Assembly (NCBI RefSeq): GCF_024628725.1
Contig: NZ_CP102410.1
Span: 1 to 64,000 of the forward strand
DNA length: 64,000 bases
DNA from: Ruegeria sp. YS9
GTDB lineage: Bacteria; Pseudomonadota; Alphaproteobacteria; Rhodobacterales; Rhodobacteraceae
Reading direction: 5' to 3'
In this document: positions 21,769 to 40,644 of the stretch, in pieces
Layout of the letters: each line of letters begins with the position of its first letter
Position numbering within the stretch: position 1 is the first letter of the stretch
Position numbers and translations under genes: made by a program
Notes under the pieces: model-generated
The model's input: the letters and a program-made list of their open reading frames with translations, nothing else
Database searches by the model: none
Told to the model about the DNA's origin: nothing

Positions 21769-23571
21769 ATGAAAAATCTATCGCTTTGGACCTCCGGGAT
21801 TGCCATTGCACTGGCCACCGCGGCCTATGCAAATGACGACCTGGTTGCCCAGATGGAGAACGCGAAACAATGGGCGATCCAGACGGGTGACTACAAAAAT
21901 CAGCGCTATTCCGAACTGGATCAGATCAACGCAGACAATGTAGGTGATCTGCAAGTGGCGTGGACCTTCTCGACCGGTGTTCTGCGTGGGCACGAGGGTT
22001 CGCCGCTGGTTATTGGCGACATGATGTATGTCCACACGCCGTTCCCGAACATTGTCTATGCTCTGGATCTGGCAAACGAAGGCAAAATTGTCTGGAAATA
22101 TGAGCCCAAGCAGGACCCGGACGTGATTCCGGTCATGTGCTGTGACACGGTGAACCGCGGTGTGGCTTATGCGGATGGCAAGATCTTCCTGCATCAGGCC
22201 GACACCAAGGTTGTGGCGCTTGATGCCAAGTCCGGGGATGTCGTCTGGGAAGTTCAGAATGGTGACCCGGCGATTGGCGAAACCAACACAGCCACGGTGT
22301 TGCCTATCAAGGACAAGGTCATTGTCGGTATCTCGGGTGGCGAATTCGGTGTGCGCGGGTCGGTTACGGCCTATGACATGAACTCGGGCGAGCTGGTCTG
22401 GCGGGCCTATTCCATGGGGCCGGATTCGGACATTCTTGTTGATCCGGAAAAGACCACCCATCTGGGTAAGCCGGTTGGCGCGGACTCGGGTACAAACACC
22501 TGGGAAGGCGATCAGTGGAAGATCGGCGGCGGCACCACATGGGGCTGGTATTCCGCGGATCTGGACGAGAACCTGATGTACTATGGCACCGGGAACCCAT
22601 CGACCTGGAACCCGGCGCAGCGCCCGGGCGACAACCGCTGGTCCATGACCATCATGGCGCGTGACATCGACACCGGCGTGGCAAGATGGTTCTACCAGAT
22701 GACGCCGCATGATGAATGGGACTATGACGGCATCAATGAAATGATCCTTACGGAACAGGAAATTGATGGCGAGCAGCGCAAACTGCTGACCCATTTCGAC
22801 CGCAACGGTCTTGGTTACACCATGGACCGCGTGACGGGCGAGCTGCTGGTGGCCGAAAAATTCGACCCGGTTGTGAACTGGACAACTGGCGTCGACATGG
22901 ATCCCAACAGCGAAACCTATGGCCGCCCGGCCGTGGTCGCGCAGTATTCGACGGAACAGAACGGCGAGGACGTGAACTCGACCGGTATCTGCCCGGCGGC
23001 TTTGGGCACCAAGGACCAACAGCCTGCGGCCTATTCGCCGAAGACTCAGTTGATGTATGTGCCAACCAACCATGTCTGCATGGATTATGAGCCGTTCCGC
23101 GTGTCCTATACCGCTGGTCAGCCCTATGTGGGTGCAACTCTGGCGATGTATCCGGCACCCGACAGCCATGGTGGCATGGGCAACTTCATTGCCTGGGACA
23201 ACACTGATGGAAGCATCAAGTGGTCACTGCCCGAGCAGTTCTCGGTCTGGTCCGGTGCGCTGGCGACAGCGGGTGACGTTGTCTTCTATGGAACGCTCGA
23301 AGGGTATCTGAAGGCGGTTCATGCTGAAACAGGGGAAGAACTGTACAAGTTCAAAACGCCCTCTGGCATCATCGGCAACGTGATGACGTACGAGCAAGGT
23401 GGCAAGCAGTATATCGGCATTCTGTCCGGTGTCGGTGGTTGGGCCGGTATCGGTCTGGCGGCTGGTTTGACCAACCCGAATGACGGTCTGGGCGCCGTGG
23501 GTGGCTATGCCGCACTCAGCGACTATACCGCGCTGGGCGGTCAGCTGACCGTGTTCGCATTGCCGAACTAA
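21769..23571 (+). CDS. xoxF: XoxF-type lanthanide-dependent methanol dehydrogenase
   Basis: This 600 aa PQQ enzyme of the periplasm has a signal peptide ([21 protein letters not shown]) and an eight-bladed propeller. Key features are the vicinal cysteines (VMCCDTV), the PQQ-stacking tryptophan region (GGTTWGWYS) and the active-site segment [11 protein letters not shown]318 is the catalytic base, and D320 two residues later is the extra aspartate that distinguishes lanthanide XoxF from calcium MxaF, which has alanine there. GGGAGGAG precedes the start. It is followed by xoxG and xoxJ. There is no mxaI small subunit in the window. Confidence 0.96.
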
Positions 23572-27282: not shown

Positions 27283-27808
27283 CGAACCGCTCGATCAACG
27301 CGTCGAGACCCGCCTGATAGACGCCGGTCACGGCGGCAATGGCGGCTTCGTCATTCAACTCGGCCGGAGGATCGTTGTTTGGATACCCGCGATAGAAGGC
27401 ACCGCGCCATTCGATGATCGAACCACCTCCGTCGCGCGGTTTTACCGTCAGATGCGACGAATAGTTGGTGACAGGCAGCACCTCTACCGCGACCTCGGTG
27501 ATCCGGTAGGAGTAGCTCATTTTCTCTGCGCTGTACTTGTACAGAATTTCATTGATCGTCGGCCCGCCTTCCTGACCAAGTGTCAGCAATCGGGTCGCAT
27601 CAATCGCGTTGCCGCCGTTTCCTTCGGTCGCAAACACAGCAGGATGCCACGACATGTCATCGAAGTTTCCGACAACGGCCCAGACTTCCTCTGGCGAGGC
27701 TGCGACCTCGGCAGTCAGCGTGACTTTCTGCCGGGTGGGTCCGTGGGCCCAAACCGGACCCGGCACCAGCAGAGCGGTGGTTGCGGCAAGAAGAAATCGT
27801 CGATTCAT
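27269..27808 (-). CDS. Exported SRPBCC protein (MxaD-like)
   Basis: This 179 aa protein has an export signal beginning MNRRFLLAATTALLVPGPVWA and an SRPBCC/START-type ligand-binding domain (VAASPEEVWAVVGNFDDMSWHPAV). MxaD, which improves electron transfer from methanol dehydrogenase to its cytochrome, belongs to this family and has a similar size. It heads the minus-strand operon with the propeller and SoxYZ-like genes and is divergent from the 28121 operon. MxaD-like function is inferred from family and context. Confidence 0.8.
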   Translation of the reverse strand: MNRRFLLAATTALLVPGPVWAHGPTRQKVTLTAEVAASPEEVWAVVGNFDDMSWHPAVFATEGNGGNAIDATRLLTLGQEGGPTINEILYKYSAEKMSYSYRITEVAVEVLPVTNYSSHLTVKPRDGGGSIIEWRGAFYRGYPNNDPPAELNDEAAIAAVTGVYQAGLDALIERFGAAS

Positions 27809-28120
27809 TCCATGTCCTCCCTGAATGCGCAGAGCTTTGGCACACGCCGCGCGCTTGCGGCGTTTCTTTTGTCAGACCTGACGTGCGAGCGCACGTTGAC
27901 GGTCACCCGTCACACCCCCTGAAAAATCGGCGGGTGTCGCGGGAAACCGCAGCAAGATCAACCATATACGCGCATTCTTATAAAATAAGAATCGAGCTTA
28001 ATGATGAAGCTGATAGGCTTTGTTTTACAACACGGCCAAAAGTATTGGTTCCGTTTTTCGGGGCGTTATGCCCCGAATATTTCAACCTGAACTCTGACTT
28101 TCAGGCAACGGGAGGACATC
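27809..28120. promoter_or_regulatory. Divergent control region with stacked inverted repeats
   Basis: This 312-bp region lies between two divergent quinoprotein-accessory operons and holds no supported gene. It contains a terminator-like hairpin (27844-27870), a GTCAG-AC-CTGAC repeat (27871-27882), the palindrome ACGTGCG-AG-CGCACGT (27881-27896), and GACGG-TCAC-CCGTC (27898-27911). An AT-rich stretch near 27977-28010 may be the promoter of the plus-strand operon. Confidence 0.5.
27844..27870 (+). terminator. Terminator-like hairpin in the divergent region
   Basis: ACGCCGC (27844-27850) and GCGGCGT (27857-27863) pair perfectly and are followed by TTCTTTT. It reads on the plus strand, where no gene ends nearby, so it may terminate a short leader or antisense transcript. 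Confidence 0.55.
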
Positions 28121-29308
28121 TTGAGCATTCGCCTGCTGCCGCTGCTTGCGGCGCTTCTTTGGTGTGCATCCGCGATGACCGCGGCGGCGCTCGATGTGAA
28201 GGCTGCGGTGCTGCGGATCGACTATCCGTCGCTTCTGCCGATCTCGCGTTATGATTTGAAACCGGACGATCTGGGGTTTGCCGGTGCGGCGCTTGGGGAT
28301 GAGGATAACGGAACCACGGGCGGATTTCTGGGACATACCTACGAGACCATAACGATGGCCGTTCCGCCGGAAGAGGCTGACGCCGCAATGGACCAGATCC
28401 TTGCCGGAGGCGTGCGCCTGATCGTCCTTTTGGCCAAGGCACCGGACATGTTGCGCCTGACGGACAAGGCGGCAGATTCCGGGGCGCTTGTTTTCAACGT
28501 GTCCGCGCCTGATGTCGATCTTCGCGACGCAAACTGCCGGGGCAACCTGCTTCATATCGCCCCGTCCCGCGCCATGAACGCCGATGCGGTTGCTCAGTTT
28601 GCCGTCTGGAAGAAATGGGGCGACTGGTTCCTGTTGGCCGGATCCAACCCCGAGGATGTCAAGCTCGCCGACGCGTATCGCCGTGCAGCGAACAAGTTCG
28701 GCGCGAAGATTGCCGAAGATCGGACCTTTGCGGATACCGGGGGATCTCGTAGAACGGATTCCGGTCATGTTCTTGTTCAGCGCCAATTGCCATTGGACAC
28801 GCAAGATGCGCGAGACCATGACGTCGTGATTGCCGCGGACGAAACCGACTATTTTGCGCGCTATCTGTCCTATCACCTTTGGACCCCACGCCCCGTGATG
28901 GGTTCAGGCGGCTTGCGTCCGACGACGTTTCACGGCGCACATGAGGCATGGGGCGCGACCCAGTTCCAGACCCGTTTCGAGGATCTGACAGGCCGCTATG
29001 TCCGCCCCGAGGACTACAACGCCTGGCTTGCACTGCGCGTAATCGGCGAGGCCGTGACCCGCGCCAGCACCGCCGAACCGGAAGGTGTGCGCGATTATGC
29101 CCTTTCTGACCAGTTCGAACTTGCCGCATTCAAAGGACAGAAAGTGACATTCCGCGATTGGAACGGGCAGTTGCGTCAGCCGATCCTTCTGTATGACGGG
29201 TCGATCACTGTCAGCGTCAGCCCGCAAGAGGGGTTTCTGCACCAGGTCTCGCCGCTCGATACGATGGGGTTGGATCGGGCGGAATCCAGCTGTCGCGCAT
29301 TTGAGTAA
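28121..29308 (+). CDS. PQQ-dehydrogenase-system ABC-type substrate-binding protein
   Basis: This 395 aa exported protein has a signal peptide (LLPLLAALLWCASAMTAAALD) and a leucine/branched-amino-acid-binding-like fold (VKAAVLRIDYPSLLPISRYD, FLLAGSNPEDVKLADAYRRA). It matches the substrate-binding family associated with PQQ-dependent alcohol dehydrogenase systems, which usually works with the PedBC-type transporter; that pair is at 38890-40424 here. The start is TTG 28121, with GGAGG at 28111-28115. It heads a seven-gene plus-strand operon ending at 33348. Confidence 0.8.
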   Translation: MSIRLLPLLAALLWCASAMTAAALDVKAAVLRIDYPSLLPISRYDLKPDDLGFAGAALGDEDNGTTGGFLGHTYETITMAVPPEEADAAMDQILAGGVRLIVLLAKAPDMLRLTDKAADSGALVFNVSAPDVDLRDANCRGNLLHIAPSRAMNADAVAQFAVWKKWGDWFLLAGSNPEDVKLADAYRRAANKFGAKIAEDRTFADTGGSRRTDSGHVLVQRQLPLDTQDARDHDVVIAADETDYFARYLSYHLWTPRPVMGSGGLRPTTFHGAHEAWGATQFQTRFEDLTGRYVRPEDYNAWLALRVIGEAVTRASTAEPEGVRDYALSDQFELAAFKGQKVTFRDWNGQLRQPILLYDGSITVSVSPQEGFLHQVSPLDTMGLDRAESSCRAFE

Positions 29309-29320
29309 CCGGAGGTATTG

Positions 29321-30292
29321 ATGAAACGACTATTGCTGACCGTTGCCTGTGCTGCGCTGACCGCCGGTCCCGTGTTCGCGGGCAAGGCTTTTGTCTCGAA
29401 CGAGCGGGGCAACACCATTACCGTGGTTGATACCGAAACCTGGGAGGTGATCACCGAATTTCCAGGCGGCAACCGACCGCGTGGGATCACCGTCAGCCCG
29501 GATGGCGGCACGCTGTATGTCTGTGCCTCGGATGACAATATCATCCGGGTGTTTGATACACAGACCTATGAGGAACTTCCCAGTTTGCCCTCTGGTCCGG
29601 ACCCCGAGCTTTTCATTCTCGAACCCTCGGGCAAGCGGCTCTATATCGCCAATGAAGACGACAATCTGGTGACGGTCACAGACACCGAAACCCGCACCGT
29701 TCTGGCCGAAATTCCGGTAGGTGTCGAACCCGAAGGCATGGGAATGAGTCCCGACGCCAAATTCGTGGTCAACACGTCCGAGACCACCAACATGGCGCAT
29801 TTCATTTCCACCGAGGACTATTCCATCAAGCATAATGTCCTGGTCGACCAGCGCCCGCGCTATGCCCAGTATACAGCGGATGGAACGCGCCTGTTCGTGA
29901 CATCGGAAATCGGTGGAACCGTCACGGTCATGGACATTGCAGAAGACGGAACGCCGACGGTTGTCGGCAAAATTAGCTTTGAAGTAGCGGGCGTGCAGCC
30001 GGAATGGTTGCAGCCCGTTGGTGCCAAGGTGACTTCGGACGGCAAACGCCTGTTCGTTGCTTTGGGGCCTGCAAACCGGGTCGCCGTTGTTGACGCGCAA
30101 AGCCTTGAAGTTCTGGACTATATACTGGTGGGGCAGCGGGTCTGGCAGTTGGATTTTACGCCGGACGAAAAATACCTGCTGACCACAAATGGTAATTCAA
30201 ACGACATCACAATCATTGATGTGGCCGCAGAGAAAGCCATCAAGTCAGTACAGGTCGGTCAACAGCCCTGGGGCGTGGTGACCATTGACTGA
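29321..30292 (+). CDS. PQQ-catabolism-associated beta-propeller protein, copy 2
   Basis: This 323 aa exported protein (signal peptide MKRLLLTVACAALTAGPVFA) consists of YVTN-type blades such as RPRGITVSPDGGTLYVCASD and NDITIIDVAAEKAIKSVQ. It belongs to the beta-propeller family recorded next to PQQ-dependent dehydrogenases. GGAGG at 29311-29315 fixes the start at ATG 29321. It sits 12 nt after the binding-protein gene. It is a second, divergent propeller beside that at 26338-27282. Confidence 0.85.
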   Translation: MKRLLLTVACAALTAGPVFAGKAFVSNERGNTITVVDTETWEVITEFPGGNRPRGITVSPDGGTLYVCASDDNIIRVFDTQTYEELPSLPSGPDPELFILEPSGKRLYIANEDDNLVTVTDTETRTVLAEIPVGVEPEGMGMSPDAKFVVNTSETTNMAHFISTEDYSIKHNVLVDQRPRYAQYTADGTRLFVTSEIGGTVTVMDIAEDGTPTVVGKISFEVAGVQPEWLQPVGAKVTSDGKRLFVALGPANRVAVVDAQSLEVLDYILVGQRVWQLDFTPDEKYLLTTNGNSNDITIIDVAAEKAIKSVQVGQQPWGVVTID

Positions 30293-30311
30293 AGTTCTGG
30301 GAGGGACGGGA

Positions 30312-30749
30312 ATGAAGAAACTAGTGATTGCAGCGATGGTTGCGGCGTTGGGTGGGCCAGTATCGGCGGCGCCGCTGTGTGACGATCTGGGATTTGCCGG
30401 GCTTCTGGCGAAATGCAACCGTGGGGAAACCATCAAGCTGACGCTTGCTTCGGGGCAACCCCTGGGTGAAGACGTGGTTCTGCAATCCGGCGCGTATTAC
30501 AAGCTTGAGATCACCGCTGATGGGTCAGCGGAACTGGCCATCGAGGGGCCATCGTTCTTTCGCGCGATCTGGATGAACGAGATCGTGATCAACAAGATCG
30601 AGATCCGTCCGATGGCGGTGGACAGCATCGAGTTTGACAAGGCCGGCGTGGCTGAATTGTCGTTCATCGCAATCAAACCCGGCAGTCATGAAATTCGCAT
30701 CCCCGGGTCCACCGGCGAAACGCAACGCATCACGGTTAGTATTCAATAG
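30312..30749 (+). CDS. Small secreted beta-rich protein
   Basis: This 145 aa protein has a signal peptide (MKKLVIAAMVAALGGPVSAA) and a beta-rich mature part with two cysteines near its N-terminus (PLCDDLGFAGLLAKCNRG) and a C-terminal strand pattern (AELSFIAIKPGSHEIRIPG) reminiscent of cupredoxin or Ig-like folds. No copper ligand set is obvious. GGAGGGAC precedes ATG 30312. It lies 19 nt after the propeller gene and 15 nt before the PepSY-like gene. Function is unknown. Confidence 0.68.
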   Translation: MKKLVIAAMVAALGGPVSAAPLCDDLGFAGLLAKCNRGETIKLTLASGQPLGEDVVLQSGAYYKLEITADGSAELAIEGPSFFRAIWMNEIVINKIEIRPMAVDSIEFDKAGVAELSFIAIKPGSHEIRIPGSTGETQRITVSIQ

Positions 30750-30764
30750 AGAAGGGATAGGTAC

Positions 30765-31013
30765 ATGAAAAATATGGGAATTTTGATAACCGTCGGGCTT
30801 CTCGCGGCCCCGGCTTTCGCCGACGACATTGACGCGGAAACGGTGGAAAAGATCGAAGCCTATCTTGCCTCTGTCGAGTGCCAGATGGATCCGGATGATA
30901 TCGAGGTTGAAGACGATGGCTATGATCTGGATGACGTCATCTGCAAGGGCGGCAACCAGTTCGATATCAAGCTGGACAAGGATTTGAATGAAGTCAGCCG
31001 AAAGGCGGAATAG
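30765..31013 (+). CDS. Small acidic PepSY-like periplasmic protein
   Basis: This 82 aa protein has a signal peptide (MKNMGILITVGLLAAPAFA) and a mature part in which 22 of about 63 residues are Asp or Glu. Two cysteines flank the acidic DPDDIEVEDDGYDLDD stretch. The pattern YDLDDV...GNQFDIKLDKDLNEV fits the PepSY fold. PepSY proteins include a lanthanide-binding example (LanPepSY) from a methylotroph. The gene is in the same operon as an ABC importer and close to xoxF, so metal binding is a reasonable hypothesis but is not shown by sequence alone. Confidence 0.72.
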   Translation: MKNMGILITVGLLAAPAFADDIDAETVEKIEAYLASVECQMDPDDIEVEDDGYDLDDVICKGGNQFDIKLDKDLNEVSRKAE

Positions 31014-31033
31014 CGAATAAAAGGGATCGGGTC

Positions 31034-31999
31034 ATGACCAAACTTCTTGCCGCCTGCCTTGCACTTGCACTCAGTTCGGGGGCTTTGGCAGCCGAGACCC
31101 TGCCGACCATTCGCGCGGCCGTACTCAAGATCGGAACGGTGAATTGGGAACTGGAGACCATTCGCCGGAACGGCTTGGATCGGAAACATGGCTTTGTCCT
31201 TGATGTTCAACCATTTGCCGACAATGGCGCAACGCGTATCGCGGTCGAGGGGGATGAGGCTGATTTGGCGGTTGCTGACTGGATTTGGGTTGCTCGTCAA
31301 AGGGCTGCCGGCAAGGACTATGTGTTCATCCCTTATTCCAAAGCCGTGGGCGGCGTGGTTGTGCCCGCTGACAGCCCGGCAACCAGTTTGAAGGATTTGG
31401 CGGGCGGCAAGATCGGCATCGCGGGTGGTCCGCTGGATAAATCCTGGCTGATTTTGCGCGCCTATGCAGCAAAAGAATACGGGATGGACTTGAAAGCCGA
31501 CACCGAACAGGTGTTTGGTGCGCCCCCGCTGATCTTCAAATCTGCTTTGAACGGTGACTATGCCGGCGCGATCAATTTCTGGCATTTTCTGGCCAAGATG
31601 AAAGCGTCCGGCATGAAAGAGCTGATCTCGGTTGAGGATGCTGGGCAGGCTTTGGGGCTCGACACGAATACACCCCTGTTGGGTTATTACCTGAAACAGA
31701 GTTTTCTGAACGAACACCCCGACCTTGCGCAAAGCCTGTTTGCCGCCAGCCGCGACGCCAAGGACCTGCTGGCCAATTCGCCCGAGGCATGGGAGGCGAT
31801 CAGACCGCGGATGAACGTCAAGTCTGATGCACAGTTTGAACAACTCAGGCTCGATTGGATCGCCGGTATTCCCGATCGTCGCCCGGTCGATGCGGTCGCG
31901 GCCAACAAGATGCTGGAACTTATGGCCGAATTGGGCGGGGCTGAGCTGGTGGGCGCTGCGACGACAGTGCCACAGGGTCTTTTTGCTGACGTGGAATAG
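31034..31999 (+). CDS. ABC transporter substrate-binding protein, NMT1/TauA type
   Basis: This 321 aa exported protein (signal peptide MTKLLAACLALALSSGALAA) has the two-lobed SsuA/TauA/NMT1-like fold (LPTIRAAVLKIGTVNWELET, LKDLAGGKIGIAGGPLDKSW). Family members bind nitrate, taurine, sulfonates or pyrimidines; the ligand cannot be read here. With the next two genes it forms a complete importer. Linkage to PQQ-associated genes suggests a ligand tied to alcohol oxidation, for example a cofactor precursor or metal chelate, which is inference. Confidence 0.82.
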   Translation: MTKLLAACLALALSSGALAAETLPTIRAAVLKIGTVNWELETIRRNGLDRKHGFVLDVQPFADNGATRIAVEGDEADLAVADWIWVARQRAAGKDYVFIPYSKAVGGVVVPADSPATSLKDLAGGKIGIAGGPLDKSWLILRAYAAKEYGMDLKADTEQVFGAPPLIFKSALNGDYAGAINFWHFLAKMKASGMKELISVEDAGQALGLDTNTPLLGYYLKQSFLNEHPDLAQSLFAASRDAKDLLANSPEAWEAIRPRMNVKSDAQFEQLRLDWIAGIPDRRPVDAVAANKMLELMAELGGAELVGAATTVPQGLFADVE

Positions 32000-32005
32000 G
32001 ATCAG

Positions 32006-32755
32006 ATGCAAAACGCGCGCCTCACGCCGCTTTTGTCCATCGCAGGCCTTGTGGCGTTGTGGATTGTTGCGGCGTCGCTGACCGCAGACCCTCAGATTCT
32101 GCCGCAACCCTGGGACCTGATCCCCCGGTTTCAGCAAGAACTTGCGTCAGGCGAATTGCTGCGCAGCCTTGGTGCGACACTGTTACGTGTGATCTGGGCC
32201 TTCGTGTTGGCGATGACATTGGGAACGATCATTGGACTGGCCATGGGGCGATCGGATGCGCTGAACCGCTGGCTTGATCCATGGCTGGTTGTCTTCCTGA
32301 ATCTGCCCGCGTTGGTTCTGATCGTGCTGTGCTATCTCTGGATCGGGCTGACCGAGGCTGCGGCGATCACCGCGGTGACGCTGAACAAAATTCCCAATGT
32401 CGCGACGATCCTCCGAGAGGGCGGCAGGGCGCTGAGCCCGGATCTGGATGCGTTGGCACGGGTCTACCGGATGCCGTGGCAAAGGCGACAGCGCCATGTG
32501 ATCCTGCCGCAGCTTGCGCCGTTTATCGCTGCTGCTGCACGGTCCGGGCTTTCTTTGATCTGGAAGATCGTGCTCGTGGTCGAGTTTCTTGGGCGCTCAT
32601 CCGGTGTCGGGTTTCAAATCCACTTGTATTTTCAGCTGTTTGATGTGGCAATGGTGCTGGTCTATGCGTTTTCGTTCATTGCCGTCATGCTGGTTGTCGA
32701 ATGGCTGGTTCTTCAACCCTTGGAGCGGAACGCTCGACGGTGGAGAACTGCATGA
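32006..32755 (+). CDS. ABC transporter permease, SsuC/TauC type
   Basis: This 249 aa inner-membrane protein has six or so hydrophobic segments and the ATPase-coupling loop (GGRALSPDLDALARVYRM...HVILPQLAPFI) typical of binding-protein-dependent importers. It lies 6 nt after the substrate-binding gene and overlaps the ATPase gene by 4 nt (ATGA). Confidence 0.88.
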   Translation: MQNARLTPLLSIAGLVALWIVAASLTADPQILPQPWDLIPRFQQELASGELLRSLGATLLRVIWAFVLAMTLGTIIGLAMGRSDALNRWLDPWLVVFLNLPALVLIVLCYLWIGLTEAAAITAVTLNKIPNVATILREGGRALSPDLDALARVYRMPWQRRQRHVILPQLAPFIAAAARSGLSLIWKIVLVVEFLGRSSGVGFQIHLYFQLFDVAMVLVYAFSFIAVMLVVEWLVLQPLERNARRWRTA

Positions 32756-33348
32756 TCCGAATTGACATCCGGAAGAAGCGCTTTGAACACCACGCCGTCC
32801 TGGGCCCCATTGCATTTGACATTGCCGCCGGGGAAACGGTCGCGCTGACCGGTCCATCGGGCATTGGAAAGACGACGCTGCTGCGATTGGTGGCAGGCAT
32901 TGACCCGGATTTCGAAGGCCAGATCGTGCGGCCGGATCGACTGGCCATTGTGTTTCAGGAACCCACTTTGCTGCCATGGCGTTCGGCTATCGACAATCTG
33001 ACCCTGATTCATGGCGACCTGTCGCAGGCTGAGGCCGACGCCGCGCTAACTGACGTGGGTTTGGACGGAAAGGGAGATTTGTTTCCCGGCCAGTTGTCAC
33101 TGGGTCAGCAGCGCCGGCTTTCTCTGGCGCGCGCCTTTGCCGGGAAGCCCGAGTTTCTGATTATGGACGAGCCCTTTGTATCACTGGATTCCGAAACGGC
33201 CGAGACGATGCTGACCCTGACCGAGGACCTCATCGCGCGGCATCGCCCGGCGACCCTGTTCGTGACGCATTCCCAACCCGAAGCACAGCGTCTTTCCGAC
33301 CGGATCCTGAACCTGGTAGCCGGGCCAGACGGGGCCGTTCTGGGTTAG
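32752..33348 (+). CDS. ABC transporter ATP-binding protein, SsuB/TauB type
   Basis: This compact 198 aa ATPase has Walker A GPSGIGKTT, the signature LSLGQQRR (a variant of LSGGQ), Walker B FLIMDEP and a switch histidine in LFVTHSQ. It is the last gene of the 28121-33348 operon. ATG 32752 overlaps the permease stop; the longer frame from 32701 is within the permease gene. It converges with pqqE, with 2 nt between the stops. Confidence 0.88.
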   Translation: MIRIDIRKKRFEHHAVLGPIAFDIAAGETVALTGPSGIGKTTLLRLVAGIDPDFEGQIVRPDRLAIVFQEPTLLPWRSAIDNLTLIHGDLSQAEADAALTDVGLDGKGDLFPGQLSLGQQRRLSLARAFAGKPEFLIMDEPFVSLDSETAETMLTLTEDLIARHRPATLFVTHSQPEAQRLSDRILNLVAGPDGAVLG

Positions 33349-33350
33349 GG

Positions 33351-34463
33351 TCATTCCGCAGGCTCTCTCGCGGCACCGGGTGCGGTTCGATATATGAAGG
33401 GCGCATCCGCTTTGGCGGCATGTTCGTTTGCCTGGTTTTGCAGGGTCTGATGATGGGGTGATTTGATGCAAACCGGATCGGTGGCAGCTGCGTCTCCGAT
33501 AACGGCCATGGCCTGACAGCGGCAGCCGCCAAAATCAATGGTTTTGCGTTCGCAGGTTTTGCACGGGTCCGACATCCAATCCGTGCCGCGATAGGCATTG
33601 AACGCGCTGCCATGGAACCAGATATCCGCAAGCGGTGTGTCCTGTACCCGGTCAAATGTCAGATGCGGGATGGACTGTGCCGCATGGCAAGGCAGAACCT
33701 GACCGTCTGGCGCCACGTTCAGCCCGGTTGTGCCCCAGCCGCCCATACATCGCTTGGGATAGTCATCATGATAGTCCGCCGGAACATAATCAATGACCAG
33801 TTGTCCCCTGAGGTTCTTCCTGGCCTCGGCCACCTGTCGCGTCACCAGTTGCGCCTGTTCCCGCGTCGGCATCAAGGCATCCCTGTTCCGCAAGGCCCAG
33901 CCGTGGAACTGTACCGTTGCAACCTCGATCCGTCGTGCTCCCATTTCGCGCGCCAGTTCCAGCGCCTGCGGCAGCTGGTGGGCATTGTGACGGTGCAGCA
34001 CGAAGTTCAGGGTCAGCGGAAACCCGATCTTCTTGATCCATTCGACCGTTTTCATCTTGCGGTCAAACCCACCCCGATAGCCGCCTACCTTATCCGCCAT
34101 CGCGGCGTCAGTGCCCTGAAGAGAAAGCTGGATATGGTCCAGGCCGACGTCGTCCAGTTCATGCAGGCGTCGCTCGGACAGGCCGATCGCCGACGTGATC
34201 AGGTTGGTATACAACCCGGCCTCACGCGCGGCATTGACCAGCGCAACCAGATCGCGGCGGGATGCGGGCTCTCCACCTGACAGATGCAATTGCAAGACAC
34301 CAAGCGCCGCCGCCTCCTTGAAAATACGTGCCCATGTTTCAGTATCCATTTCACTGTCGAGTTTGGCCATTTCGACTGGGTTGGAGCAATAAGGGCAGGA
34401 CAATGGGCATCGATGCGTCAGCTCGGCCAGCATGGCAATTGGGGGAGGGGGTTTTACCTGCAT
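33351..34463 (-). CDS. pqqE: PqqE, radical SAM enzyme of PQQ synthesis
   Basis: This 370 aa enzyme links the glutamate and tyrosine side chains of PqqA. The radical SAM cluster motif CPLSCPYC is near residue 19, and the C-terminal SPASM region carries further cysteines (CMGGWG, CHAAQ, CKTCERK, GGCRCQA). It is the last gene of pqqABCDE, overlapping pqqD by ATGA. Confidence 0.96.
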   Translation of the reverse strand: MQVKPPPPIAMLAELTHRCPLSCPYCSNPVEMAKLDSEMDTETWARIFKEAAALGVLQLHLSGGEPASRRDLVALVNAAREAGLYTNLITSAIGLSERRLHELDDVGLDHIQLSLQGTDAAMADKVGGYRGGFDRKMKTVEWIKKIGFPLTLNFVLHRHNAHQLPQALELAREMGARRIEVATVQFHGWALRNRDALMPTREQAQLVTRQVAEARKNLRGQLVIDYVPADYHDDYPKRCMGGWGTTGLNVAPDGQVLPCHAAQSIPHLTFDRVQDTPLADIWFHGSAFNAYRGTDWMSDPCKTCERKTIDFGGCRCQAMAVIGDAAATDPVCIKSPHHQTLQNQANEHAAKADAPFIYRTAPGAAREPAE

Positions 34464-34735
34464 CAGACGACATCCAGAAAACGACGCACCCGAAGGGCAT
34501 CCAGAAACCCCGAGCTGTCTTCGACAATCTGTTCTTCCGGGGCGTTGTATTTCCTGGACAGGCTTGCGGTGATCTGACCAAAGCTGCGTTGGCCGTCTAC
34601 TTCGCTCAGAATTGCATGTCCGATCTGATCCAACGTCACGGCCCGTTCAGGTGCCAGCAGTACCCATTGTTCCCGCACGGAATCGTACTGGATGCGGACA
34701 CCACGTGGAAGCAAGGGGACCTGCTGCGCCAACAT
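34463..34735 (-). CDS. pqqD: PqqD, peptide chaperone of PQQ synthesis
   Basis: This 90 aa protein has the PqqD fold, including LLPRGVRIQYDSVREQWVLL and LTASLSRKYN-like C-terminal helices. It binds PqqA and presents it to PqqE. The start at 34735 overlaps the pqqC stop (ATGA); the longer frame to 34918 is inside pqqC. It overlaps pqqE by 1 nt. Confidence 0.94.
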   Translation of the reverse strand: MLAQQVPLLPRGVRIQYDSVREQWVLLAPERAVTLDQIGHAILSEVDGQRSFGQITASLSRKYNAPEEQIVEDSSGFLDALRVRRFLDVV

Positions 34736-35484
34736 CACGATGCCTGCCGCATCCGTAAACCGGTGTCCGGCTTCCACGCCCCCGGCGGAATTCGGGCAGG
34801 TTCGACATAGGCGCCCCACAGGGCATCCAGCTGCGACCAGAGGACATCGGTCTTGAATATCAGTGCCTTGGCTGCCGCGTCCTGTTTTTCTGCGGTGTCG
34901 GCATGATCCAATACCCATGCCAGACCAAAGGCCACATCCTTGGGGGCTTCTTTCAGGCGGTTGCGGAAATAGGCAAGTGAGCTGTCATCCGCAAAATCGT
35001 AATGCCGAAGCAGGCCTTCGATCCTGTTGGCGTGAATCTTGGGAGCAAACAGTTCAGTGAGTGAGGCCGCAACCGCTTCCAGCAACGACTTTTCGCGGAC
35101 GTATCGCACGTAAGCATCCACCGCAAATCTGGTGGCAGGCAACACGCCGTCACAGGAGGCGACATAGTCCGGATCCAGGCCGACCGCTTCGGCCAGCCGC
35201 AACCAGCGCCGGATACCACCTTCGTTGTCTTCCGTGCCGTCATGATCTTCGATCCGGGACCGCCAGGCTCGGCGCAGCGCCGGATCTTCTACACGCGACA
35301 TGAAGGCGGCGTCCTTCATCGGGATGGAATGCTGATAGTAGTAGCGGTTGATCACCCAGGCCCGCACTTCGTCAGGCGTGCATTGACCACCGTGCAGGCG
35401 ATGATGAAACGGATGCAGGTCGTGGTAACGCTCGGCTCCGATCTGACGAAGCCGGGCCTCGAACTCTTTGCGGCTTTGGGTCAT
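34735..35484 (-). CDS. pqqC: PqqC, pyrroloquinoline-quinone synthase
   Basis: This 249 aa oxidase performs the last ring closure and oxidation steps of PQQ synthesis. The family helices with HPFHHRLHGG and YYYQHSIPMKDA contain the active-site histidines and tyrosines. The start at 35484 overlaps the pqqB stop (ATGA); upstream in-frame codons lie inside pqqB. Length is normal. Confidence 0.96.
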   Translation of the reverse strand: MTQSRKEFEARLRQIGAERYHDLHPFHHRLHGGQCTPDEVRAWVINRYYYQHSIPMKDAAFMSRVEDPALRRAWRSRIEDHDGTEDNEGGIRRWLRLAEAVGLDPDYVASCDGVLPATRFAVDAYVRYVREKSLLEAVAASLTELFAPKIHANRIEGLLRHYDFADDSSLAYFRNRLKEAPKDVAFGLAWVLDHADTAEKQDAAAKALIFKTDVLWSQLDALWGAYVEPARIPPGAWKPDTGLRMRQAS

Positions 35485-36377
35485 AGCGTTATCTCCATGC
35501 CATCCTGGCCTATCGTCCAGCCTTTGGCCCGTGCCCGAGCGTTCTCGGCGCTGTCGGGGCGCAGAACCGGATTGGTGTTGTTCATGTGGATGAACACTTT
35601 CCGGCCGATTTTCATATCGGCGAAACCTGCGATCGATCCATCGGGGCCGTCCATCGACATATGGCCCATGCGCTTGCCCGTTTTCTGACCCAGCCCGGCC
35701 TGCACCATTTCCGTGTCGTGCCAAAGCGTGCCGTCGAAAAACAAAAGATCGGCCTCGTCAAGGCGGGCGCGCAACTCGGGCGTCAATGCGGCACAGCCCG
35801 GTATGTAATACGCCGTCTTCCCCTGCGCGCTCAGTGCCACCCCGACGGTTTGTTCGCCAACCAATTCGGTTTCGACATGTTCCCCTTCAAGATACAGAGG
35901 CACTTTGCCGGGCACCGGGAACAAAGTTGCCTGCAAGCCGGGAACCAGATCGAACGTCTGATTCAACGAGATCGGCGCACGTGTCACGACCGAGGCGTTC
36001 AAGGCGTCGAATATCGGGTTCTGCGCAAGAACATCCTGAATGCTTTGGGTTGCAAACAGCGTAAATGGCTGCATCTCGCGCAGCGTCAGCAAGCCAGCCA
36101 CATGGTCTATGTCGCCATTCGTCACCAGCACCGATTGAATCGGTACCTCTCGTAACCCGGTCGGATACAGGACGGGCGTTTTGCCAAGCTGCGTTCGAAT
36201 ATCCGGAGATGCGTTCAGGATGGCCCAGTTGTGGCCATCGGGTGACACCGCGAGTGATGATTGCGTCTGCGCCGGAATATGTCCGCTTCGGGCCAGATTG
36301 CAGTTTTCACATCCGCAATTCCATTGCGGAAGGCCGCCGCCAGCAGCGGCCCCAAGTATTATTGCGCGCAACGTCAT
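35481..36377 (-). CDS. pqqB: PqqB, metallo-beta-lactamase-fold hydroxylase
   Basis: This 298 aa protein begins with the family motif LGAAAGGGLPQWNCGC and has metal-site residues in TNGDIDHVAGLL. PqqB hydroxylates the crosslinked peptide during PQQ formation. It starts 23 nt after the pqqA stop and overlaps pqqC by 4 nt. Confidence 0.96.
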   Translation of the reverse strand: MTLRAIILGAAAGGGLPQWNCGCENCNLARSGHIPAQTQSSLAVSPDGHNWAILNASPDIRTQLGKTPVLYPTGLREVPIQSVLVTNGDIDHVAGLLTLREMQPFTLFATQSIQDVLAQNPIFDALNASVVTRAPISLNQTFDLVPGLQATLFPVPGKVPLYLEGEHVETELVGEQTVGVALSAQGKTAYYIPGCAALTPELRARLDEADLLFFDGTLWHDTEMVQAGLGQKTGKRMGHMSMDGPDGSIAGFADMKIGRKVFIHMNNTNPVLRPDSAENARARAKGWTIGQDGMEITL

Positions 36378-36400
36378 CTATTGTTGGCGCCTGCGGCTGA

Positions 36401-36502
36401 TCAGATCAGGCCGCCGCCGCGCTCATCGTCATGATCGGGGCCGTACATGTTGATTTCCATGCCGCATTCGATTTCGCGAATAACAGGTCTGTTCCAAGCC
36501 AT
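36401..36502 (-). CDS. pqqA: PqqA, PQQ precursor peptide
   Basis: This 33-residue peptide is the substrate of the pathway. It begins MAWNRPVIREIECGMEINMY; E16 and Y20 (E-x3-Y) are the residues fused to make PQQ. A very strong ribosome site (GGAGGAGGA) lies before the start, fitting high expression of the precursor. The C-terminal tail is acidic then glycine-rich (HDDERGGG) and longer than in many PqqA peptides. It was found by reading upstream of pqqB. Confidence 0.94.
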   Translation of the reverse strand: MAWNRPVIREIECGMEINMYGPDHDDERGGGLI

Positions 36503-36604: not shown

Positions 36605-37288
36605 TCAGGTGTCATCCGACAACGGGGCGACCCCCTGTATGCAAAACCCCTGGTTGCGTATGGTTTTGATTTCAAACCCAAAATCATCCAATCCCAATTT
36701 CTTTCTCAGATATCCGATGTAGACGTCCACCACGTTTTCGTTACTGGACCCGTCCTGTGACCAGAGCGTGTCAAACAGCTCTCCTCGGGATATTGGCGAT
36801 CCGGCCTTGCTGTTGAGCAGCGTGAGCAGTTCGAATTCACGTTCGGTGAGAGCAATGCTTGTCTCGCGGATTGAAAGTGTTCTGTCCCGCGACGACAGGC
36901 GCGCGGGGTCCGGGCGCTGAGAGAGCACGCGTTGTTCCTGTACTTGCAACCGGGCGACAAGCTCATCAAAGCTGAACGGCTTCACGACATAATCATCGGC
37001 CCCGGCTTCCAGCCCGGCGGCGCGGTGATCGACATCAGAGAGGGCCGACAACATCAGGATCGGGATTCCGACCCCGGCACGGCGCGCGGCCCGGACCAGT
37101 TCGACACCGCTATCCGTTCCCAGCATCACATCTACAATCGCACCTGAGAATGCACCACTTTTCAACCGCTCCAACCCTTGGTCGGCGCGGTTTTCAGCCT
37201 CGGCTGAGTAGCCGTGCAGCGAAAGGCCCCGGACAAGGGCCGACGTGATTCTGGGGTCGTCATCTATGATCAGCAGTCTGGAGACCAT
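36605..37288 (-). CDS. OmpR-family response regulator
   Basis: This 227 aa regulator has a receiver domain (IIDDD acidic triad at the start, phospho-Asp in AIVDVMLG, K in VVKPF) and a winged-helix DNA-binding domain (LTEREFELLTLLNSKAGSPI). It lies 3 nt after its kinase gene and 102 nt upstream of pqqA on the same strand, so it may control pqqA and the transporter genes. Probable ligands are unknown. Confidence 0.88.
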   Translation of the reverse strand: MVSRLLIIDDDPRITSALVRGLSLHGYSAEAENRADQGLERLKSGAFSGAIVDVMLGTDSGVELVRAARRAGVGIPILMLSALSDVDHRAAGLEAGADDYVVKPFSFDELVARLQVQEQRVLSQRPDPARLSSRDRTLSIRETSIALTEREFELLTLLNSKAGSPISRGELFDTLWSQDGSSNENVVDVYIGYLRKKLGLDDFGFEIKTIRNQGFCIQGVAPLSDDT

Positions 37289-37291
37289 TTT

Positions 37292-38893
37292 CTATGCCTC
37301 TGCCAGCGGTAATCGAATGCAGACATTTGTACCGGCATTTGACCCCAGGGCGTTTTCACGTGGAACCGGGCTTGCAACCGAAATGGTTCCTTCATGGGCC
37401 TCGACGACCCACCTTGCCAGCGCCAGCCCGACACCGAAACCCTGACTGTTTGCCGCCCCTCCCTGAACAAACCGCTCGAAGATCCGGGTTTGGGCGCCGT
37501 GGGGAATTCCGGGGCCGTTATCCGTCAGCTGTATTTGAACGTCACCGTCAACCGATTGACCCGACAGCAGCAACGCCTTCCCGTCCCGCGCATGTCGGAT
37601 CGCGTTGCGTATCAGACTGAGCAGGACCTGACGTATCCAGTTCAGGTCACAGTGTAACGCACAATCCGGGAAGTCGCCCGTTTCAAGCTGCATGTCGGCG
37701 CCGTCGATTTCAGGTTGAATGTCGCTCACAACTGTTTGCATCAGATCGCATAGTGCAACTTTGGTTGGTTCCAGAGCCAGCTCACCGGTTTCGGATCGGG
37801 CGACGCGCAGCAAATCATCGATTCTCTGGTTCAGTTTTGCGGCGCTGCTTTCGATCGTTGCCAACGTCTCTGGTGCGGTCTGAATATCCCTCTGGCCTAT
37901 CTGAGCTTCCATCATGATGACGGTCAGCGGTGTGCGCAGTTCGTGGCTGACATCAGCAAAAAAGCGGCGCCGGTTTTCGTCGATCTTGGACAGGGATTCA
38001 TTTGCAGCGCTCAGTTCCCGGGTTCGCTGGGCAATGGTCTCGTTCAACCGGGTCCATTCTGCGTCAACCTCGGCCTGGCGTTTTCTCAATGCAGCCGCCA
38101 TTCGGTTGGTCTCGCCATATAACTGGCCGATCTCGTCATTGCGGGTTTGCGGCAGAGAAACTGCGAATTCGGATTGGCCGACCTGAACCGCCGCATTGCG
38201 CAGCCGATCCAGACGAGAGAACTGCGGCCGCACCAGACCAAAGTAGAACCACGCCGTGCTGAGCAAGGCGAACAGTGCCAGTGTCAGTGCCACCCAGGTC
38301 AGAACCCAGCGGGTCCTTTCGATCCCGGCCAATACGGAATTTCGAAACAGAACCTCGGTATTCACCGCCTGGCTGAGCAGAGGATCAAACGCCGACGCAA
38401 ACGAGTCGACATAGGCGCGCAGCTGGGCCTGATCGGCTTCTGCGTCGGCTAGCCCTTCCAGCGTGCTGGCCAGCAGCGCCTCCATTCTGGCCAGACCCAG
38501 GGATTGGGTTCCGTAACGCGATTGTTCGTCTAGCCCCAGAGATCGAACCGCGGCCACGGCATCTTCCACATCAGAGCGAAGCTGTAGAAACGTTGTCGCA
38601 ATCTGGTCTCGGATCGGGGACAGGCGATCAAGTCGAGACTCGACTGTTTGGCCGGTCTGTATCGACTCGGTTGCGATCACAAGGAATGTGGCGGCCTGGG
38701 TCGACAGAGCGGCATAGCGTGCCATACGGGTTTCTGACGCCAGCGCGGTTTCCAGACGGCTGGCGACGTTCTGCATCCCGAAATAAAGGGTCGCGGCCGC
38801 CAGCAGCGTGCCGGATCCAAGCACCACGGCGCCAAGGCCCAACCGGGTTTTCAGAAGCAGACTGCGCTTTGCGCTTTGGGGCGCGGCCGTCAT
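37292..38893 (-). CDS. Membrane sensor histidine kinase
   Basis: This 533 aa kinase has an N-terminal membrane helix (about residues 15-38), a helical periplasmic sensing region of about 150 residues, a second membrane helix (about 198-220), HAMP, a coiled coil, HisKA (FFADVSHELRTPL), and HATPase (NAIRHA, DNGPGIPH, GFGVGLALA). It overlaps the PedC-like permease gene by 4 nt and precedes the regulator, so transporter and two-component system are one operon. Confidence 0.87.
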   Translation of the reverse strand: MTAAPQSAKRSLLLKTRLGLGAVVLGSGTLLAAATLYFGMQNVASRLETALASETRMARYAALSTQAATFLVIATESIQTGQTVESRLDRLSPIRDQIATTFLQLRSDVEDAVAAVRSLGLDEQSRYGTQSLGLARMEALLASTLEGLADAEADQAQLRAYVDSFASAFDPLLSQAVNTEVLFRNSVLAGIERTRWVLTWVALTLALFALLSTAWFYFGLVRPQFSRLDRLRNAAVQVGQSEFAVSLPQTRNDEIGQLYGETNRMAAALRKRQAEVDAEWTRLNETIAQRTRELSAANESLSKIDENRRRFFADVSHELRTPLTVIMMEAQIGQRDIQTAPETLATIESSAAKLNQRIDDLLRVARSETGELALEPTKVALCDLMQTVVSDIQPEIDGADMQLETGDFPDCALHCDLNWIRQVLLSLIRNAIRHARDGKALLLSGQSVDGDVQIQLTDNGPGIPHGAQTRIFERFVQGGAANSQGFGVGLALARWVVEAHEGTISVASPVPRENALGSNAGTNVCIRLPLAEA

Positions 38894-39681
38894 GATTTCC
38901 GCCTCATCAGGCCTCGAGCCGGATCATACCCCCAAACGGCGATCGCACTCAGTATCGCGGTTGACGCCAGAACCCACAGCAGGGCCCCCCAGTTGATCTG
39001 CAAGTAAAGCAGAAACCGGATCAACTCGACCACATGCGTGAAAGGATTGAGCGCACAGATATCACGCAGCAACGGCGAGCTTTCAGCCATTTTCCACAGC
39101 GGATAGAGGGCGGAGGACAGGAAGAACATCGGGAAGATGACAAAGTTCATCACCCCGGCGAAATTCTCCAGCTGCCTGATGAAACTGGACAGCACCAACC
39201 CCAGCGCGCCCAGCATCAGACCGCCCAGAACCAATCCCGGAAGAACAGCGACATATCCGGGCAACGGCAGGACTATGCCGAACAATGCGGCCAGTGCGAG
39301 AAACGTATAGACTTGCAGGATGGATATCGCGGTTGATCCCAGCAGACGGCAGAACAACAGCCACCAGCGTGGGAACGAGCTGGTCAGCAGCAGGCGCATC
39401 GAGCCCATCTCGCGGTCATAGACAAGGCTGAGCGAGCTTTGCATCCCATTGAACAACAGAACCATCGCGCACAGGCCGGGGACGATATAGGTCTCGTAAG
39501 TGATATAGGTCTGATAGGGTGGAATGATCGACAGGCCGAGGGCCGCACGAAACCCTGCTGCGAAGATCAAAAGCCAGACCATTGGCCGGACCAGAGCTGC
39601 GAGAAATCGTTCGCGTTGATGGATGAAACGCAGAAACTCGCGTCCGATGATGGCGCGGGCGACTCCCAGGAAACCGTTCAT
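38890..39681 (-). CDS. ABC-2 type permease, PedC-like
   Basis: This 263 aa inner-membrane protein has six hydrophobic segments and the ABC-2 pattern (YETYIVPGLCAMVLLFNGMQ, PLWKMAESSPLLRDICALNP). It matches the permease of the PQQ-dependent alcohol dehydrogenase system transporter (PedC of Pseudomonas putida phenylethanol oxidation). The start at 39681 overlaps the ATPase stop (ATGA). Confidence 0.85.
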   Translation of the reverse strand: MNGFLGVARAIIGREFLRFIHQRERFLAALVRPMVWLLIFAAGFRAALGLSIIPPYQTYITYETYIVPGLCAMVLLFNGMQSSLSLVYDREMGSMRLLLTSSFPRWWLLFCRLLGSTAISILQVYTFLALAALFGIVLPLPGYVAVLPGLVLGGLMLGALGLVLSSFIRQLENFAGVMNFVIFPMFFLSSALYPLWKMAESSPLLRDICALNPFTHVVELIRFLLYLQINWGALLWVLASTAILSAIAVWGYDPARGLMRRKS

Positions 39682-40424
39682 GTCGGGACCTCGGTTCGGG
39701 ACAGGAACCAATCGGACAATTTTTGATCCCCCCGCAGGCGGCCCACCTGCCCACTGGCAAGAATCTGACCGCGATGAAGAACCAGCAGCTGGTCGTCGTC
39801 GCGCATTTCATCTGTCAGATGCGTGGCCCACAAGATGCACAGCCCCTGTTCCGCCAGGTCGTGCACATGGTCGGTTATCGCGTGCCGTGCCGCGGCATCA
39901 AGCCCAACGGTCGGCTCGTCCAACAGCAACACCGAAGGGTCGTGCAGCAGGGCACGCGCCAGCTCCATCCGGCGGCGATGACCGCCATTGAGATCGCGTA
40001 CACGTTCCCCGGCACGTTCCCGCATGTTCAGCTGATCCAGCGCCGCGTCGATACGGCCAGGGACCTCGGATCGTGGTAGCCCATGCAGAGCTGCGAAATA
40101 GGACATGTTCTGGCGCACCGTCAAACCCAGATCCAGTGTCGGTTGCTGAAAGACCACGCCAAGCTTTGCCAGCGCCTTGCGCGGGGATTGGCGCAGATCA
40201 TGGCCTGCGACCGTGATTTCACCGTCCGGCGCCACAAGCAATCGCGTGAGCAACGACACCAGTGTCGATTTCCCGGCCCCATTCGGACCGAGCAGACCGC
40301 AGAACGTCCCCGCCGACACGTCAAAAGAGACAGCATCCAAAGCCGTCTTGGCGCCATAATGAAAGCTCAGGTCGCGTACGGCGAGACCAGGATCGGTTTC
40401 CGCCGAGGGGCGCGCGTCTGACAT
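39678..40424 (-). CDS. ABC transporter ATPase, PedB-like
   Basis: This 248 aa ATPase has Walker A GPNGAGKST, a divergent signature (LNGGHRRRMELA), Walker B VLLLDEPTVGLD and switch H (ATHLTDE). It matches the ATP-binding subunit of the PQQ-dependent alcohol dehydrogenase system. GGAGGAAGA before ATG 40424 fixes the start. It heads the operon that runs through the permease, kinase and response regulator. Substrate and direction of transport are unknown; ABC-2 permeases are usually exporters. Confidence 0.85.
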   Translation of the reverse strand: MSDARPSAETDPGLAVRDLSFHYGAKTALDAVSFDVSAGTFCGLLGPNGAGKSTLVSLLTRLLVAPDGEITVAGHDLRQSPRKALAKLGVVFQQPTLDLGLTVRQNMSYFAALHGLPRSEVPGRIDAALDQLNMRERAGERVRDLNGGHRRRMELARALLHDPSVLLLDEPTVGLDAAARHAITDHVHDLAEQGLCILWATHLTDEMRDDDQLLVLHRGQILASGQVGRLRGDQKLSDWFLSRTEVPT

Positions 40425-40644
40425 TCTTCCTCCGTCCCGAACCATGGTTCTTGACAGCAGCTTGCATCGTCGGGCCGCGTTTCTCAACCTTCCAGTCCGA
40501 GGCTGGACCACGACTTAAGTATGTGAAGGTTCACGGATTTGATGGGATTGTCCGAAGGATCCGTCGCCAAGTTCGGCCAGCCAGGATTGTCCGGGGACGG
40601 CGGGCCTGATTGGCGGGAACAACCCGTTTTGCGGTCACCGCTCT

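Follow-up and report, generated by a model that had tools for sequence, protein, structure and literature searches.

A XoxF-associated gene row in Ruegeria sp. YS9 with parts of a Ped/Lut-type lanthanide set and a PqqT-like importer

The XoxF-associated gene row

The DNA analysed here, referred to as the window, covers the initial 64 kb of contig NZ_CP102410.1 (contig C2; 748 kb) of Ruegeria sp. YS9, whose genome (G000) of 4.30 Mb is 100% complete. Seven plus-strand genes at 28121-33348 form a tight row with intergenic gaps of -4 to 20 bp, encoding a binding protein, a beta-propeller, an exported protein here named cup145, a small acidic PepSY protein, and the binding protein, permease and ATPase of an ATP-binding cassette (ABC) importer (Table 1). 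An earlier interpretation of this DNA from its letters and open reading frames (the sequence-only reading) had singled out the genes from cup145 to the ATPase as a candidate uptake system for lanthanides or metal chelates. We instead favour, with a probability of roughly 0.72, a single XoxF-associated row holding parts of two ABC systems, a Ped/Lut lanthanide set and a PqqT-type importer of pyrroloquinoline quinone (PQQ). Since XoxF needs both a lanthanide and PQQ, one row would supply both. The tight plus-strand arrangement that the sequence-only reading described was borne out, and co-transcription, which it had asserted, is probable for all seven genes.

The two genes at the head of the row and two on the opposite strand match TIGR03863, TIGR03866, TIGR03864 and TIGR03861, all above cut-off and all near a xoxF gene with the lanthanide-type aspartate (Ln Asp). 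By these matches, they constitute the known Ped/Lut lanthanide ABC set and would transport lanthanides, a set that the sequence-only reading overlooked when it took the window to lack a known lanthanide transporter. The likeness to PedA1A2BC of Pseudomonas putida and LutAEF of Methylorubrum extorquens consists in the four families lying near a lanthanide-dependent dehydrogenase. The window set differs in being split, with A1A2 at 28-30 kb and BC at 39-40 kb, on the opposite strand and 5.5 kb away, in being joined by cup145 and PepSY, and in that no LutH-type TonB receptor was found in the genome. The PedA1-, PedB- and PedC-like genes presumably correspond to LutA, LutE and LutF. In the accessible text of PMC6839425, whose naming is followed here, PedA1 is the binding protein, PedA2 the propeller, PedB the ATPase and PedC the permease, and PedA1A2BC is needed for efficient growth of P. 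putida at nanomolar lanthanide. Lanthanide transport is reported, in the literature accessible to us, for the systems of both P. putida and M. extorquens.

Table 1. Genes of the XoxF-associated region (window coordinates; scores in bits)
Feature	Position	Strand	Evidence
xoxF, lanthanide-dependent PQQ methanol dehydrogenase	21769..23571	+	TIGR03075, 769; DEWDYDG with Ln Asp
PedA1/LutA-like periplasmic substrate-binding protein	28121..29308	+	TIGR03863, 473 (cut-off 413.6), residues from 28142
PedA2-like YVTN beta-propeller	29321..30292	+	TIGR03866, 508 (cut-off 287)
cup145, exported 145-residue protein, no named family	30312..30749	+	recurrent Ped/Lut neighbour in Alphaproteobacteria
Acidic single-domain PepSY_2 protein, 82 residues	30765..31013	+	PF13670, 37.3 (cut-off 24.3)
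PqqT-type periplasmic binding protein (Pfam NMT1)	31034..31999	+	PF09084; homology to PDB 9b1u/9b1v
Permease of PqqT-type importer	32006..32755	+	PF00528 (BPD_transp_1), 80
ATPase of PqqT-type importer	32752..33348	+	PF00005 (ABC_tran), 91
pqqE, pqqD, pqqC, pqqB, pqqA (PQQ biosynthesis)	33351..36502	-	TIGR02109, TIGR02111, TIGR02108
PedC/LutF-like permease	38890..39687	-	TIGR03861, 424 (cut-off 241)
PedB/LutE-like ATPase	39678..40433	-	TIGR03864, 343 (cut-off 302)

The association with lanthanide-dependent enzymes, also proposed from the letters alone, held in wider samples. Across 60 stretches fetched from the same bacterial family, 45 of the 46 dehydrogenase rows spanning the site carry the Ln Asp, four of these (L067, L070, L071 and L117) with divergent surroundings of the site. 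The sole row without it is a MxaF-like gene (L115, genome G083) in a stretch that lacks the importer, which this genome has elsewhere. Two main dehydrogenase types occur, XoxF at 76-88% identity and, at ~36%, an Exa/PedH-like type, and the aspartate suggests that the latter is lanthanide-dependent as well. In 80 named loci fetched with the importer's binding protein, a sample that favours close relatives, 55 xoxF genes could be read across the site and all 55 have EWD[YF]DG; PepSY is present in 53 of the 80. The PqqT-type importer is linked to quinoprotein clusters in named loci and in Rhizobiales too.

The PqqT-like importer and PQQ biosynthesis

The protein encoded at 31034-31999 is a homologue of PqqT of M. 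extorquens AM1, and its importer is most likely one for PQQ. A phmmer search of this protein against all PDB chains (E ≤ 0.1) matched only 9b1u/9b1v and 9ooz, at 217 and 215 bits; the near-identical sequence of 9ooz suggests that it is a PqqT variant. A profile built from 14 relatives with PqqT left out gave PqqT 301 bits, the next structure 27 and a taurine-binding protein 18.8. The homology to PqqT extends over 296 residues in a shared context of PQQ enzymes, with an invariant lysine in a GG-x-x-DK-x-W segment, GAPPL and W183 common to both. The two proteins differ in that they are 38% identical and that the window protein is encoded in a XoxF/Ped row, next to the permease and ATPase of its own importer. 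The lysine of the window protein, Lys136 (GGPLDKSW), is invariant in 15/15 aligned sequences and, by a numbering offset of 27 residues, would be K142 of PqqT, which we take to contact PQQ. According to the accessible text of PMC12124388 and PMC12828617, PqqT binds PQQ with a dissociation constant of 50 nM, and one of the two papers presents it as a protein of the periplasm that curbs the loss of PQQ and assists in its capture. The NMT1-type importer that had been recognised beside xoxF was thus found as described, and the passing mention of PQQ-related ligands proved apt; the assignment to lanthanides or metal chelates gave way to the PqqT likeness. In a Sinorhizobium meliloti ABS7 pSymB stretch (L272, 13505-14184), the importer permease matches in two overlapping pieces with no listed coding sequence, and the gene may be broken in that strain or assembly, or merely unlisted.

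The importer, PepSY, PQQ dehydrogenases, pqqC and pqqE were counted in 198 genomes of the same bacterial family. Genomes were scored as importer-positive at a binding-protein match of at least 189 bits (48 genomes; 54 at E ≤ 0.001), as dehydrogenase-positive at E ≤ 1e-40 (63/198) and as pqqC-positive at E ≤ 0.001 (44 genomes, including two under the family cut-off). The importer was found in 44 of the 63 dehydrogenase genomes as compared to 4 of the 135 others (p = 3e-24). Within the 63, it was retained in 20/22 genomes without pqqC versus 24/41 with pqqC (Fisher p = 0.009). These 22 genomes also lack pqqE, which was found in 43 genomes, the same as the 44 pqqC genomes except for G119. The best dehydrogenase is only ~33% identical to XoxF in G014 and G074, which lack the importer, and in G165, which has it; with these three set aside, all 19 of 19 dehydrogenase genomes without pqqC have the importer. 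Enrichment where pqqC is missing is what a PQQ importer predicts, and a metal importer would not. Gene content, homology, linkage and the persistence of the importer where PQQ biosynthesis genes are missing are all observed; PQQ is very probably the ligand of the importer in this organism, and transport is presumably inward.

The acidic PepSY protein and cup145

By our reading of its signal, the PepSY protein has a mature part of 63 residues (7.1 kDa) beginning after 'AFA', with 14 Asp and 8 Glu (22/63, 35%), a net charge of -16 and an isoelectric point of 4.05, and Cys39 and Cys60 bracket its acidic stretch. These values confirm the sequence-only description of an 82-residue protein with a mature part that is 35% acidic and two cysteines around an acidic region. 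The protein was compared with a PepSY set of 72 sequences, some of them identical, L089 (without either cysteine) being excluded from the acidity and position counts, and with 30 of 48 PF13670 rows as controls, namely the 29 that have a locus, the XoxF-linked L217 excepted, together with L002. Over the ~55 C-terminal residues, the Asp/Glu fraction is 0.31 in the window protein and has a median of 0.31 in its set (range 0.18-0.36), as compared to a median of 0.22 and a maximum of 0.28 in the same-family controls, none of which (0/30) reaches the window value. The cysteine pair is present in 66 of 67 distinct sequences, L089 counted. Seven acidic positions (D42, D44, D45, D51, D57, D73 and E76) are typical of the set and mostly missing from the controls, D57 being found in 66/66 of the set, L089 excluded, and in 0/30 controls. 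A profile search of the PDB with PepSY gave no credible match.

PepSY follows XoxF and not the importer. Of the 16 family genomes with a match, 14 were counted as PepSY-positive, those in G054 (25% identity) and G083 (36%) being excluded, and XoxF-type enzymes, found in 25 family genomes including two with fragmentary genes (G008 and G083), are present in 13/14 PepSY genomes as compared to 12/184 others (p = 9e-13). Inside the dehydrogenase genomes, the importer accompanies PepSY in 11/14 and its absence in 33/49 (p = 0.52), that is, without co-variation, and PepSY was rejected as a part of the PqqT importer on this ground; the idea that importer and PepSY form one functional unit is likewise not supported. 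PepSY is present in 68 of the 98 loci examined. The recognised gene closest to it on the upstream side is cup145 in 58 loci and the propeller in 9; on the downstream side, 58 loci have the gene of the PqqT-like protein closest and 5 have PedB. The downstream count is biased because most loci were fetched by the PqqT-like protein, some genomes twice. Six loci fetched by PepSY (L098, L100, L102, L103, L104 and L106) have it next to Ped/Lut genes, with no importer. In Paracoccus alcaliphilus its neighbours are cup145 and PedB; in Haematobacter massiliensis it is flanked by a hypothetical gene, in the place of cup145, and an ABC ATPase. Neither of these stretches has an annotated PqqT importer. 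Sinorhizobium fredii has all nine genes in a single row. A relative on S. meliloti plasmid pEm1132b (L276, 8995-9252) has the cysteine pair and an LDDVFC motif and stands beside CopC/CopD, YcnI and iron ABC genes, with no XoxF-cluster gene annotated in the stretch.

PepSY is best read as a small accessory of the Ped/Lut set, perhaps a lanthanide binder, and the prediction that it binds metal falls just short of an even bet. The closest described protein, LanPepSY (LanP) of Methylobacillus flagellatus, is likewise an acidic exported PepSY protein of a lanthanide-using bacterium. According to the accessible literature, LanP is a 19-kDa protein with two PepSY domains, reported among methanotrophs from Gammaproteobacteria, whereas the window protein has one PF13670 domain, 7.1 kDa when mature, and two cysteines. 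The 14 plasmid records that match the window PepSY include no gammaproteobacterium; the presence of a LanP plasmid in that collection was unchecked. A possible alternative, to which we give about one chance in three, is that PepSY, instead of binding lanthanide, buffers calcium or copper, is a domain resembling protease inhibitors, or helps XoxF or the beta-propeller to fold, its acidity coming from the periplasmic or marine setting. The same-motif relative beside CopC/CopD and YcnI genes speaks for this, as does the finding that E49, D50, D54 and D67 are common to ordinary PepSY_2 domains; it is countered by the strong XoxF association, by the lower acidity of the same-family controls and by the far higher frequency in the PepSY set of the seven acidic positions, D57 among them.

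The unknown secreted protein noticed beside PepSY in the sequence-only reading is cup145, which fell into no NCBIfam family and had no credible match in Pfam or in a PDB profile search. Of 289 class-level genomes, 21 have it. Among 15 cup145 stretches from other families, 14 also have Ped/Lut genes, and L265 shows none. In Paracoccus alcaliphilus (L273, 10807-11418) and Haematobacter (L275, 9903-10499), the gene of the PedC-like permease is immediately followed by a further hypothetical gene, which in Paracoccus reads as one for an exported protein.

Cofactor routes and competing explanations

Searches with PF00593 and PF07715 gave no TonB receptor match anywhere in the 100% complete window genome, and hence none in the window, in agreement with the earlier statement that no LutH-like receptor is present there; the same searches do match in 3 of 14 control genomes. 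Nine of the 25 XoxF-type family genomes likewise have no PF00593 match. With XoxF present and no TonB receptor found, lanthanide has to get through the outer membrane by some other route. The idea that PepSY replaces a missing LutH was rejected because, within the 25 XoxF-type genomes, it is commoner with TonB receptors (11/16) than where none was found (2/9, p = 0.04). In its probable role in PQQ uptake, the importer is also reminiscent of PqqU of Escherichia coli; according to the accessible literature, bacteria that do not make PQQ take it up too. PqqU differs in that it is an outer-membrane, TonB-dependent importer, and no TonB receptor was found in the window genome. Among the 20 importer-positive genomes without pqqC, nine have no PF00593 receptor that could be found, so PqqU-like entry is unavailable to those nine. 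PQQ, at 330 Da, is under the outer-membrane diffusion limit as given in the accessible literature.

In the two-system reading, lanthanide and PQQ would reach the periplasm without TonB receptors, presumably via porins. PedA1A2, with cup145 and PepSY, would handle lanthanide and pass it to PedBC, PepSY either buffering lanthanide or handing it to PedA1A2 in the periplasm. The PqqT-like protein would capture PQQ that leaks into or arrives in the periplasm, and would pass it to its own permease and ATPase for inward transport.

Several points weigh against this reading. XoxF is periplasmic, which leaves the carriage of PQQ into the cytoplasm unexplained, and the window's genome makes PQQ itself, so import is not obligatory. 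The importer is missing from 6 of the 25 XoxF-type genomes, four genomes with the importer give no dehydrogenase match at E ≤ 1e-40, and G043, the sole other genome of the same genus sampled, gave no match for importer, PepSY, dehydrogenase or pqqC. The importer threshold of 189 bits was picked after inspection of the list, and the genome counts share ancestry and are not phylogenetically independent, some genomes being incomplete. The acidity of the PepSY set overlaps that of the controls at its low end (0.18), and PepSY relatives occur in other settings too: L099 in a Ped/Lut row whose enzyme is Exa/PedH-like and carries the Ln Asp, L101 accompanied by cup145 alone, and the pEm1132b relative in a copper-resistance locus.

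A bolder version, which we regard as unlikely at about one chance in four, has one operon bring both parts of the XoxF cofactor inward, the lanthanide by PedA1A2BC with cup145 and PepSY, and PQQ by the PqqT importer. PQQ, like lanthanide, would then have to enter the cytoplasm to be sensed, loaded or exported again, and PepSY would be a small lanthanide carrier of one domain that feeds the ABC set. That 20/22 pqqC-negative genomes keep the importer suggests such a passage, although XoxF works in the periplasm.

The original proposal, which joins PepSY, the secreted protein and the NMT1-type importer into a single undescribed system for the uptake of lanthanides or metal chelates, is improbable, also in a modern form where the importer carries PQQ-lanthanide complexes with PQQ itself as the chelator. 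Its genes are adjacent and the neighbouring dehydrogenases are of the lanthanide type, and, in the accessible text of a review, 9B1V is PqqT with PQQ and Gd bound and PqqT before the K142D exchange binds La at ~6 μM. Tight La binding, however, belongs to the K142D variant in that account, whereas the lysine is invariant in the window family; PepSY and the importer show no co-variation, a separate Ped/Lut set is present in the window, and the importer is found more often in genomes that lack PQQ biosynthesis. What survives of the proposal is a PepSY protein of unusual acidity, linked to XoxF and possibly able to bind lanthanides, and not an undescribed metal-uptake set that includes the importer. 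The presence by chance of an importer for taurine, another sulfonate, nitrate or a thiamine precursor, suggested by the Pfam NMT1 assignment and by sub-cut-off NCBIfam similarity of the permease and ATPase to SsuC/TauC and sulfonate ATPases, was rejected as highly improbable on profile score (18.8 versus 301 bits) and runs against the linkage to quinoprotein clusters in the 198 genomes, the named loci and Rhizobiales.

The closest kinds are known, and their combination in the window is a new variation. Within the accessible open literature, which excludes subscription journals, no description was found of a PepSY protein in a Ped/Lut operon or of a PqqT importer in a XoxF operon, and no paper on a LutA crystal structure was found there. 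The phrase 'ABC transporter' does not occur in the accessible main texts of PMC5934484, on Roseobacter XoxF, or PMC11996626, on ocean lanthanide. The row places a PQQ importer beside a lanthanide ABC transporter, and family members with PQQ enzymes keep the importer without PQQ biosynthesis genes. The accessible text of PMC6839425 asks for what reason lanthanide is taken into the cytoplasm although the enzymes that use it work in the periplasm; in single tatC mutants of P. putida, its authors saw no sign of twin-arginine translocation (Tat) export of the enzyme. A paired PQQ importer would sharpen that question, for which pqq-negative Rhodobacteraceae offer natural test strains, and cup145 and the acidic PepSY protein are candidates for the missing periplasmic steps.

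The surroundings of the row are shared with Ruegeria sp. AD91A, in which the same gene order is found on a 743-kb plasmid with proteins 88-99% identical to those of the window and the xoxF orthologue carries the name XoxF5. The usual partner genes of xoxF also lie upstream of the seven-gene row. The start of the PedA1-like gene is uncertain, the AD91A start corresponding to about 28175 in the window. The pqq genes converge on the importer genes, and pqqA and pqqD are named at matching places in AD91A; the pqqA precursor gene (36502-36401, minus strand, 33 codons) stands upstream of pqqB, in the same place as in AD91A. Between pqqA and the PedBC-like genes, a response regulator and a histidine kinase (36605-38893, minus strand), present in many of the 80 named relatives, are a possible alcohol or lanthanide sensor. 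A scan of 27800-33500 gave one promoter-like site as compared to 2.0 expected and nine terminator-like sites as compared to 6.0, and a tRNA scan found none. Elsewhere on the same contig (L274, 376500-396000, at ~8.7-12.3 kb of that stretch) lies a remnant of a second quinoprotein cluster, with a full-length TIGR03863 gene, a truncated propeller and a 400-residue open reading frame with two separated PQQ dehydrogenase segments.

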